Assembly (NCBI GenBank): GCA_031315865.1
Contig: JALDRJ010000002.1
Span: forward strand, 2,082,001-2,146,000
DNA length: 64,000 nt
Source of the DNA: Nitrospirales bacterium
GTDB taxonomy: Bacteria > Nitrospirota > Nitrospiria > Nitrospirales > UBA8639
Direction: 5' to 3'
Position 1 is the first letter of the stretch; every line of letters starts with the position of its first letter. The notes beneath the pieces were generated by a model. It saw only the letters and a program-made list of their open reading frames with translations. It made no database searches and was not told the DNA's origin. This document shows, one piece after another, positions 1 to 9,221 of this stretch. Made by a program: the position numbers and the translations under genes.

Positions 1-56
1 TTTTCCCGCAGCAGTTGATCTGAGTAAATCTCCAGAAACTTCTTCCGAACAGACAA
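1..56 (-). CDS. possible 5' end of an unidentified gene running off the window
   Basis: Downstream of yqgE on the same strand an open frame runs to the window edge. A TTG codon at 56-54 would give a basic start reading roughly MSVRKKFLEIYSDQLLRE. The composition is protein-like, but only 18 codons are visible and the start codon is weak. It could also be untranslated sequence after yqgE. No function can be assigned. Confidence 0.25.
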   Translation of the reverse strand, partial: MSVRKKFLEIYSDQLLRE

Positions 57-2280: not shown

Positions 2281-3783
2281 TTATCGCTGACTGTACCACC
2301 GGAATCCTTTGGATTCCTGGTAGTTTGGCCTGTGGAATTTCGCGCCCGGCTTTTCGAGCATCAATACCTTGAAGTCCCAAAGTCCGAACCAGGCCGGGTC
2401 CAACACGCTATGATAGTGCAGGCCCGTTAATTTAGGGAGGGTTTCCCCAAGACTGTCCTTCAATTCGGCGTGCGTGTAGGCGCGGACGGAGAAGGGTTTG
2501 TCGAGGCTCGCGCAAATACGACGAATTGCGTAGGCCGCTCCGGTACACAGAACTTGCGTGTTCCCGGAAATATTCAGAAGCTGCGGCAGCGCACAGTATT
2601 GTTCACGGAAGCCAAGGCCCCGAGCGGCATGCCGCATGTGTGAATATTGAACTTCATACTCGGTATGTCCCGGTAGCTTCACGGGTTCGGGATAGCCGGT
2701 CTCGATCCCAAACTCGATCATGATGGCATGGCCCCCCGGCTTCAGGACCCGCCAGGCTTCCATGAGGAATGAGAGCGCGCCGAAATTGAAAATAATCTCG
2801 TCCGGGAACGGGGTATCCAAAGGCAGATGCAATCGGCGAATCAGGTCCAACGCCGCTTGATGTTGCGGGGTCGTGCCTTCATGAGTTTCCAATTCTTTCG
2901 CGGTGAGTTGAACCGGAGTCATGTCGGCGAGGTTTTCATTGTCGATGATGAGGTCAACACTGCCGTCCCTGAATGGAAGCTGTTCGGCGTTGGCCTGTAT
3001 GGCCGAGGCTTGCCATCCGGCAGATTGCGCTAAACGGGTCTGTGATCCCAAAAAAGGTTTCGTGAGGTCTAAGAATGTATAAGACATGCCGGCACGTTCT
3101 TCCGCACTCAGCTCTCCGGCCAGCTCTTTTGAAACGTACCCCAAGCCGGCGCCGACTTCAACGATGCACGTGGGGCGTGGAGAAAACCATCCCATCTGTC
3201 GAAGGGTCGTTCCCAGCAACCGGCCATAGGTCAGGCCATGTAACGCTTCGCAAGGCTCACGGAACAGATGTGACACGGTCGTCTCGATGATTTCGAAATG
3301 ACCATGTTGAGTCTGGATTCCTTGCATATGAAACTTCGAGAGATGATCTTCCGTTTCCTCCGAGACATTCCCATGCCATTTCTCTCGAACCTTTTGTAAT
3401 AACAGGTCCCATTTGGCTTCGGTGTTGTGTCCGCTGGGGGCTTCTGTTCCGTAAAAACACAGAGAGTATCGCGGCAGAGCCCAACGTTCCAAAAACCACT
3501 GGCCTGTCTCCTGGTTGGGACCACAGACCCATTTCCCAAAACGACTCAGCAGGGTGGCCAGGGTCGATCGGCCATCCATGGCCCCCAGCAGTGAAGCGCC
3601 CATGCGGTTGAGTTTGATCAACGGCAGGTCCTCATCCAGGGGGCTCACCCACCATTCTTCAGGCCCATGCTGGTAGATGATGAGATCCGGCATGCGCCAG
3701 GCGCGCTGCGTAAGGATTTCGCCCTCAAGCGTGAGTGCGTCGTCGGTCTGTGTCGTCGGGTTTGAACTGAGAGAATCTGGCAC
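2281..3783 (-). CDS. class I SAM methyltransferase with PqqD-like N-terminal domain
   Basis: A 500-residue protein of two parts. Residues about 40-85 ('WWVSPLDEDLPLIKLNRMG', 'LLGAMDGRSTLATLLSRFG') look like a PqqD-type peptide- or partner-binding domain. From about residue 205 a class I SAM-dependent methyltransferase begins, with the glycine-rich loop 'VEVGAGLGYVSKE' (208-220), the acidic 'FLDLTKPF' strand, the 'LPFRDGSVDLIID' motif and 'AWRVLKPGGHAIMIEFG'. Translation starts at a GTG one base after the stop of the di-iron protein gene upstream, so the two are almost certainly co-translated. The substrate is unknown. The PqqD-like element hints at a peptide or carrier-bound substrate, but that is inference; no RiPP precursor or radical SAM gene is seen nearby. 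Confidence 0.75.
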   Translation of the reverse strand: MPDSLSSNPTTQTDDALTLEGEILTQRAWRMPDLIIYQHGPEEWWVSPLDEDLPLIKLNRMGASLLGAMDGRSTLATLLSRFGKWVCGPNQETGQWFLERWALPRYSLCFYGTEAPSGHNTEAKWDLLLQKVREKWHGNVSEETEDHLSKFHMQGIQTQHGHFEIIETTVSHLFREPCEALHGLTYGRLLGTTLRQMGWFSPRPTCIVEVGAGLGYVSKELAGELSAEERAGMSYTFLDLTKPFLGSQTRLAQSAGWQASAIQANAEQLPFRDGSVDLIIDNENLADMTPVQLTAKELETHEGTTPQHQAALDLIRRLHLPLDTPFPDEIIFNFGALSFLMEAWRVLKPGGHAIMIEFGIETGYPEPVKLPGHTEYEVQYSHMRHAARGLGFREQYCALPQLLNISGNTQVLCTGAAYAIRRICASLDKPFSVRAYTHAELKDSLGETLPKLTGLHYHSVLDPAWFGLWDFKVLMLEKPGAKFHRPNYQESKGFRWYSQR

Positions 3784-3784
3784 G

Positions 3785-4501
3785 TCACGAGTCCTTCATA
3801 TGTTCAGATTGAAAAACCGCGCGGCGCATGCCTGTCCAGAAAGCGTCCCACCCATCGGCGGCGGTTCGAGCTCCGGAAACCACGAGTGCTAGCTTTTCCG
3901 GCGTTTGGGCTGTCTTCTGCACGGCTGTGATGAGCCAATCGCTGTGCGCGATTTCTTCTTCGAGGTGCATGGAAAAAAACGTTAAATCCTGCTCCGTGAA
4001 TCGCGGATACTTTTTCAGTCCCGGCAGGAAAAACCGGAACTCGGACACCGCGGTCGTTTCGACGGCCAGTTCCGCGCCAAGCGCTTGTAAATACCCCGCT
4101 TCGAGGAACAGGTGCCGCAAGATGTCCAGATAATGGCGATTTTCCGGGATGGGCCGCGTCAGACGGAGTTCGTCTATGTCGATGCCCGCAGCCGCGGCGA
4201 ACCGTTCAAGATGACAAATATGAGCCTGGGTCACGGTGCCGCTGCCGAGTTCGGAGTACAGGGTTTTTGTCAGCTCCACGCGCATTTCCAGTTCTTCGAC
4301 CGGAGTCTGAAAGAGCAGGCCTTCGAGGAGCTTCACAAAGTGACGGCAAAAATAGTGGTACTGCGTGGTGAAGACGTAGAGTTGTTGCGGTGTTAGCCAT
4401 CGCTCCCGGAATTCAATAAAGAAGCGATGAGTATTGACTGGATGGTCGTGGAGCTCAGCCAGCAGCGATTCCAGGGAACAATCGTGGACCGATTCAGCCA
4501 T
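3785..4501 (-). CDS. haem-oxygenase-like di-iron oxidase (TenA/PqqC/CADD-like)
   Basis: An all-helical 238-residue protein of the 'iron-containing redox enzyme' group (haem-oxygenase-like di-iron oxidases such as CADD, UndA and BesC). Candidate iron ligands occur in the expected order: E84 and H94 in 'SELGSGTVTQAHICHL', E148 in 'LAVETTAVSE', and H179/E183/H186 in 'HLEEEIAHSDWL'. It resembles the Chlamydia protein CADD, but the position matching CADD's self-sacrificed Tyr27 is Phe ('HRFFIEF'), so CADD-type p-aminobenzoate formation from its own Tyr is unlikely. The start at 4501 is chosen for a GAGGAA seven bases upstream; an in-frame ATG 35 codons earlier lacks this. It is first in a two-gene operon with the methyltransferase. 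Substrate unknown. Confidence 0.8.
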   Translation of the reverse strand: MAESVHDCSLESLLAELHDHPVNTHRFFIEFRERWLTPQQLYVFTTQYHYFCRHFVKLLEGLLFQTPVEELEMRVELTKTLYSELGSGTVTQAHICHLERFAAAAGIDIDELRLTRPIPENRHYLDILRHLFLEAGYLQALGAELAVETTAVSEFRFFLPGLKKYPRFTEQDLTFFSMHLEEEIAHSDWLITAVQKTAQTPEKLALVVSGARTAADGWDAFWTGMRRAVFQSEHMKDS

Positions 4502-8568: not shown

Positions 8569-8805
8569 TCAGGGTTCATCTCCTGTCAGGGGCGGCCGAG
8601 CCGGCACTTTTCGCAAGATCTTACGTAAGGTGCCTTTTTTGGCTTTGGCGGCCCGATTTTGTAAATAGTCCTCGGTCATGATCGCCGAAATCTTTTCTGC
8701 GACAGCAGTAGAAATAAACTGGTTGATGGACACTCCTTCTTTTTGGGCAACTTCCTTAATATGTCGATGGATCGATTCAGGCAGTCGTAAATTCAGCGCG
8801 CTCAT
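8569..8805 (-). CDS. ribbon-helix-helix antitoxin (HicB/Arc-like)
   Basis: A 78-residue protein with an N-terminal ribbon-helix-helix: 'ALNLRLPESIHRHIKEVAQK' forms the DNA-contacting strand and first helix, 'EGVSINQFISTAVAEKI' the second helix. This is the HicB-like/Arc-like antitoxin type. The basic tail ('RAAKAKKGTLRKILRKV') probably wraps the toxin. The start ATG overlaps the stop of the PIN gene by four bases (ATGA), giving coupled translation in a toxin-first operon. It should repress its own promoter through the inverted repeat at 9231-9252. Confidence 0.85.
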   Translation of the reverse strand: MSALNLRLPESIHRHIKEVAQKEGVSINQFISTAVAEKISAIMTEDYLQNRAAKAKKGTLRKILRKVPARPPLTGDEP

Positions 8806-9221
8806 GTCAGTTCCTCCAAGAAGAGCCTTGGTGTCACGGCCCGGATACCAAATTGTGTACTCTCGTGAAAATCCTTGACATTGTGGGTCACAATCAGCGG
8901 CGCTTTTGCTGCCACGGCTAACTCAAGGATGTGATCGTCCTTCGGGTCCTTTAAACAGGGGCGCCACAAATAGGAGATTCGATGGTGGGTGCTCACCTGA
9001 CATAAATAATTCAAAAGTTGTTCAATATCGTCACCGGTTAATCGCAACATTGTCGTATGTCGTTTTAAGACCTCTTCGTACTCAAACAAGAGGGTTGTCG
9101 AAAGGTTCAGTTTAACGACTCCTTGCTCAACCAATTGAAGGATGCGATAGGACCCTCCACGTGAGGAATATAATCCAGCATGCAAGACGTTGGTATCCAG
9201 GACAACTTCAATTTCTTCCAT
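8802..9221 (-). CDS. PIN-domain toxin (putative ribonuclease)
   Basis: A 139-residue PIN-domain protein of the 'putative toxin-antitoxin system toxin component, PIN family'. The acidic active-site residues are visible: D9 in 'VVLDTNVLHAGL', Glu in 'FEYEEVL' (47-50), D95/D96 in 'KDPKDDHILELA' and D117 in 'THNVKDFHE'. Such proteins are Mg-dependent RNases that cut tRNA, rRNA or mRNA. No SD sequence stands before the ATG, and the palindromic operator lies only ten bases upstream, so the mRNA leader is very short or absent. It forms an operon with the antitoxin that overlaps its end. Confidence 0.88.
   Translation of the reverse strand: MEEIEVVLDTNVLHAGLYSSRGGSYRILQLVEQGVVKLNLSTTLLFEYEEVLKRHTTMLRLTGDDIEQLLNYLCQVSTHHRISYLWRPCLKDPKDDHILELAVAAKAPLIVTHNVKDFHESTQFGIRAVTPRLFLEELT

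Follow-up and report, generated by a model that had tools for sequence, protein, structure and literature searches.

Heme-oxygenase-like di-metal oxidases (HDOs) have been reviewed as enzymes that act mostly on amino-acid and fatty-acid substrates, with ribosomal peptide modification also among their roles (PMC13108848). One structural relative of the oxidase described here, CADD, is a self-sacrificing p-aminobenzoate synthase whose sacrificial residues are Tyr27 and Lys152 (PMC11965152). RREs, to which PqqD-like domains can be compared, have the element order bbb-aaa, three strands followed by three helices (PMC12710340). In two studied Nitrospira species, methyl-plastoquinones are the sole quinones (PMC12324825). 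Our literature searches, on HDO–methyltransferase pairings and on Nitrospira, turned up no description of this pair.

The window, a stretch of 64,000 nucleotides, is DNA of the order Nitrospirales from a nitrifying-type bacterium. Its minus strand encodes a 238-aa HDO (3785..4501), followed by a 500-aa protein (2281..3783; hereafter MT) that joins a PqqD-like domain to a class I SAM methyltransferase. HDO runs from ATG 4501, which follows a ribosome site of the GAGGAA type, to its stop at 3785; because of this site, and because the nearest relatives start at the same position, the longer listed frame (to 4606) is unneeded. A single base, C at position 3784 (minus strand), separates the HDO stop from the GTG of MT at 3783. 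An AAGGA motif ~10 nt ahead of this GTG, within the last HDO codons, is likely the MT ribosome site, judging by sequence. The one-base gap claimed in the first-pass annotation holds up, with both frames present, and the joint production claimed there is supported in that coupled translation is probable. Relatives keep the tight spacing, which is −4 nt (the frames overlapping in ATGA), close to 0, or +45 nt. Mean column identity is 74% in the HDO alignment and again in the MT alignment, each spanning an order, and neither gene can therefore be a chance open reading frame. On one flank of the locus lie ppx, yggX, and algH; the other flank carries two bactofilin genes plus one CopD-like gene.

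A short DNA block, CTTGCGAC...GCATCGTGTAATCTGG, is conserved ahead of HDO, no more than about 120 nt upstream, at eleven loci (L038, L041-L043, L045, L049, L051, L055, L058, L061, and L087); it may be a regulatory element, and it matches no Rfam family in the loci scanned. A search with Rfam for riboswitches and other known RNAs near the locus in nine relatives returned solely a tRNA at the gathering threshold. Elsewhere in the window (8569-9221), genes for a HicB/CopG-type antitoxin and a PIN-domain toxin overlap by 4 nt.

HDO matches Pfam Haem_oxygenas_2 (PF14518) with an E-value of 1.1e-21. Six ligands, E84, H94, E148, H179, E183, and H186, are invariant across 24 aligned sequences, supplying the three histidines and three carboxylates on three core helices that characterize the superfamily. 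The AF2 model (pLDDT 91) has the predicted heme-oxygenase α7 fold, and a Foldseek search places BesC (TM 0.79–0.85) and CADD (TM 0.77–0.85) at the top, with HrmI and PqqC also among the top matches. The call of a di-iron oxidase made in the first-pass annotation is supported: this is a genuine HDO with a full ligand set and probably a metal- and O2-dependent oxidase of the BesC/CADD structural type. It makes up a new, clearly delimited subfamily in which every metal ligand is kept and the residues that its CADD relatives sacrifice are missing. Additional paralogues of HDO type, with E between about 1e-53 and 1e-21 and no linkage to MT, occur in genomes G172 (C2:212405-213088) and G316 (C56:242-916) and in many genomes of family f3; one of them in G172 has close by a 195-aa ORF that weakly matches a ferritin-like protein (L223).

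METHYLTRANSFERASE is a class I SAM enzyme, with a match to Pfam Methyltransf_11 at 3.2e-11. The SAM-binding core and C-terminal region (2281..3172, minus strand) are delineated by Pfam, the family alignment, and the longest structural partners; the Pfam score is over the cut-off, and the structure matches agree with a Rossmann core carrying motif I and an acidic loop. The core motifs are EVGAGLGYVS (res. 209–218), FLDLT (res. 237–241), and DNENLADMTPV (res. 281–291). Many methyltransferases match the AF2 model of MT (pLDDT 80) in Foldseek and VIA-align. The longest structural alignments are to MidA/COG1565 proteins, extending over 250–275 residues with Z of 17.3–17.8, values tied with those of many small-molecule methyltransferases, and the MidA likeness is for this reason a lead only. 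The segment after strand 4 is alike in the two, DNENLADMTPV in MT versus SNELVDAFPV in MidA, both of the NExxD type, and hhalign gives a weak link between MT and the MidA/COG1565 profile (probability 78%). The MidA model PF02636 is weakly reached by 13 of 43 MT family members (best E 0.0011); the window MT is unlisted at E 10 and stays below the gathering score. Two clear MidA proteins are encoded in the genome, together with a third, 506-aa relative (G000 C2:540519-541061, L158) whose MidA-like core matches PF02636 at 7.1e-9. Found in most relatives searched, the 506-aa protein represents a third MidA-type family beside the two canonical ones.

The putative PqqD/RRE-like domain occupies about residues 21–112 of MT (3448..3723, minus strand). 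Only three of 43 MT family members reach PF05402 (PqqD), with a best E of 0.064, a weak match; the window MT has no listed match at E 10 and falls short of the gathering score, and searching the G000 genome with PF05402 gave no match at E 0.001. In hhalign, the MT N-terminus scores 24.9 against a local set of nine PqqD sequences from relatives, compared with a maximum of 18.0 over 200 column shuffles, and the alignment is centered on LNRMGASLLGAMDGRSTLATLL. When 44 local families are compared with the PqqD set, the MT family comes out on top. The AF2 model contains strands at residues 27–30, 36–40, and 43–46 (plus 56–58), followed by helices at residues 60–68, 75–82, and 94–100, in a block with pLDDT mostly 84–95. 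This predicted element order fits the bbb-aaa of RREs. Matches in a fold search against the PDB cover the methyltransferase part only (res. 148–481); PqqD is not among them, a result that is neutral for the N-terminus. Thus, the PqqD-like N-terminus that had been read from the sequence survives in part: the motif, the predicted topology, and a profile score above all shuffles speak for it, and the weak sequence match and missed Pfam gathering score limit it. The sequence likeness to PqqD is weak but beyond chance.

MT is distributed along taxonomic lines. In an even sample of 296 genomes of the phylum, MT is found in 97, all within Nitrospirales, corresponding to 97 of 99 Nitrospirales genomes (the two without it, among the 99 shown, are G041 and G314) and none of 197 from elsewhere in the phylum. 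Among the 60 nearest genomes, 51 encode MT, which is absent from all four genomes of family f4 in this set. Close relatives are nearly all Nitrospirales MAGs (NPIRA, OFTM, and similar); the exceptions are single MAGs labeled Nitrospinota and Opitutia. No plasmid-borne MT relatives were found. HDO is patchier: orthologues (E ≤ 1e-50) are present in 16 genomes of the phylum sample, every one of which also encodes MT, and MT is retained in many genomes without HDO. In G172 and G316, HDO is away from MT, among unrelated genes. An obligate two-enzyme unit is not supported by these genomes. In G013, MT appears split, with an N-terminal piece beside HDO and the remainder about 540 kb off (C1:51671-52564 and C1:594142-594249), in what appears to be a rearrangement or misassembly.

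We labeled a tree of 54 MT proteins by HDO adjacency. Each of the two deep halves of the tree contains genomes with HDO directly upstream of MT as well as HDO-less genomes; the label needs seven changes, five of which are forced by well-supported branches. This pattern suggests ancestral linkage with repeated loss, and gains are compatible with the change count alone. For linked pairs, HDO and MT distance matrices correlate with r = 0.92, and none of 2000 permutations was as high; vertical hitchhiking of neighbors would equally give this value. No MT positions track HDO presence beyond clade-specific ones. The two genes, taken at first as a pair, are thus co-inherited where both exist, and co-conservation breaks down elsewhere.

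In many Nitrospirales, the MT gene has an insertion hotspot at its 3′ end (L125 in G311, L126 in G137, L123, L120, L121, L056, L057, and L177-L216). Among Nitrospirales relatives that lack HDO, MT and ppx are separated by anything between about 30 bp and more than 9 kb. In 15 of 46 loci this gap is shorter than 200 bp and tail copies are absent, and 19 of 46 carry 29 extra copies of the final 50–75 nt, or of longer stretches, of the MT gene; most of these copies end with the stop codon. These copies span the last 50–440 nt and bound small cassettes between MT and ppx, a pattern confined to this site in the ten genomes scanned. The cargo includes HigB-like, HepT-like, nucleotidyltransferase, HTH, and SNF2 (ZorD/DpdE-like) genes, which are toxin-antitoxin-like and defence-like. 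The pattern looks like serial insertion at the 3′ end of a protein gene; no dedicated integrase was identified.

Our leading proposal, advanced tentatively and with less than even confidence, is that MT is a lineage-specific core methyltransferase whose PqqD-like domain holds the protein or peptide to be modified, served by an accessory O2-dependent oxidase in what would be an ancestral Nitrospirales operon. The N-terminal wing would dock the protein or peptide, and the class I SAM domain, MidA/COG1565-like in extent, would methylate the docked polypeptide. HDO, translated just ahead of MT, would contribute an accessory O2-dependent step in the same pathway, probably on an amino-acid-like group, and would have been lost or relocated in some lineages without loss of MT. 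The absence of HDO from many genomes weakens the case for a pathway shared by the two enzymes, and the tie between the MidA-like matches and small-molecule methyltransferases weakens the case for a protein substrate of MT.

The alternative that survives best, which we consider somewhat unlikely, is a small-molecule pathway for a metabolite or cofactor, in which HDO cleaves or oxidizes a free amino-acid-like compound, MT methylates the product, and the winged helix has a purely structural role. By both sequence and structure, BesC ranks with the nearest relatives of HDO, and many structure matches of MT are small-molecule enzymes. Two plasmid HDO homologues also sit within BesC-style amino-acid clusters, alongside an aminotransferase, an FAD oxidoreductase, a TauD-type dioxygenase, and an ATP-grasp enzyme; however, these partner genes are all absent from the window locus, and MT persists without HDO.

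A RiPP-like, carried-peptide system is improbable. Here, the PqqD-like domain would bind a leader encoded elsewhere, HDO would oxidize, and MT would methylate the core, a scheme suited to a PqqD-like wing on MT and to the ribosomal peptide modification listed among roles that otherwise involve mostly amino-acid and fatty-acid substrates (PMC13108848). Yet clustering of short ORFs within about 7 kb at 64 loci recovered as conserved only YggX, ribosomal L28, and shadow frames. The precursor gene nearby that marks a RiPP cluster is thus missing from these loci, a result still compatible with a lineage-specific or distant precursor, and the neighboring precursor that the earlier reading had led us to look for did not materialize. 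The locus likewise has no conserved radical SAM or RiPP gene and no conserved protease or transporter partner, and neither a substrate nor a conserved partner gene was found. Moreover, MT is near-universal in an order, whereas RiPP clusters are patchy. A pqq operon (pqqB, C, D, and E, assigned by eye and by a PF05402 match) does lie a few kb from the HDO-MT pair at one locus (L157, 8515-11606), in a single f2 genome, and is not general. The small system for modifying a carried peptide substrate envisaged in the first-pass annotation is therefore possible yet unsupported, because MT is kept without HDO and no precursor ORF is conserved within 7 kb.

A role in making the methyl-plastoquinones of Nitrospira, as a ring-methylating or ring-oxidizing step, is very doubtful. 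The pathway needs a ring methylation and MT is order-wide, but the methyltransferase already named, MpqE, is a protein distinct from MT; it scores over the cut-off in 51 of 60 relatives, among them three of the four sampled genomes of family f4, which is without MT. MT was accordingly rejected as MpqE, which is a different gene.

It is highly improbable that HDO and MT share no function and are neighbors by vertical descent only. HDO can be absent or relocated without change in MT, as such a history would allow; against it, the frames remain overlapping or adjacent in two deep clades that take in many genera, and HDO orthologues in the phylum sample are confined to genomes with MT.

It is scarcely credible that HDO belongs to the CADD type and makes p-aminobenzoate for folate by self-sacrifice, with MT a mere neighbor: HDO shares the fold and metal ligands of CADD and NePabS and has the PDB relatives 9pj4 (profile match 8.1e-14) and 8va9, but it scores 47 bits against a CADD-family cut-off of 200, the position of Tyr27 is an invariant Phe28 and that of Lys152 is Phe, Tyr, or Leu at residue 158 in all 24 members, and pabC-like and pabB-like genes lie side by side in the genome (C2:834547-836309), as in many relatives, so that this assignment is ruled out.

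The near-universal presence of MT in Nitrospirales and its absence from the rest of the phylum sample make it a candidate core trait of lineages that include the Nitrospira nitrifiers, and the optional HDO offers natural comparisons with and without the oxidase. If the PqqD-like domain truly carries a peptide or protein, RRE-type capture would extend beyond natural products. A bolder version of our proposal is a long shot: the RRE-like wing on a MidA-like MT would capture one Nitrospirales house-keeping protein, which HDO would oxidize before methylation. Within this joint module, the captured protein might be, for example, a respiratory or nitrite-oxidation subunit. Such a module, if true, would be a case of an HDO acting on another protein.

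Besides CADD and NePabS, three known systems place the pair. BesC (4-chloro-allylglycine synthase) is the best solved relative of HDO by phmmer (8.5e-13) and Foldseek and shares its heme-oxygenase-like bundle and di-metal ligand type, but the two are only 24% identical, bes-type partner genes are absent from the HDO locus, and a score of 53 bits (53.1) against the NCBIfam BesC cut-off of 500 excludes HDO as a BesC equivalog. MidA/NDUFAF7 (COG1565, PF02636), a group of protein methyltransferases marked by arginine methylation of complex I, gives MT its longest structural alignments, a similar motif after strand 4, and a weak profile link, whereas MT carries an extra PqqD-like N-domain and itself misses the Pfam model. 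The PqqC-PqqD pair, with its natural PqqCD fusion, also sets a heme-oxygenase-fold enzyme beside a PqqD-like domain, as in HDO-MT. However, PqqC acts without a metal (PMC13108848) and HDO retains its metal ligands; in MT, the PqqD-like segment and a methyltransferase form one polypeptide, and PqqA, PqqB, and PqqE are absent from the window locus. Rather than a compact peptide-modifying cluster, the HDO-MT pair is an old core enzyme with an optional oxidizing partner.
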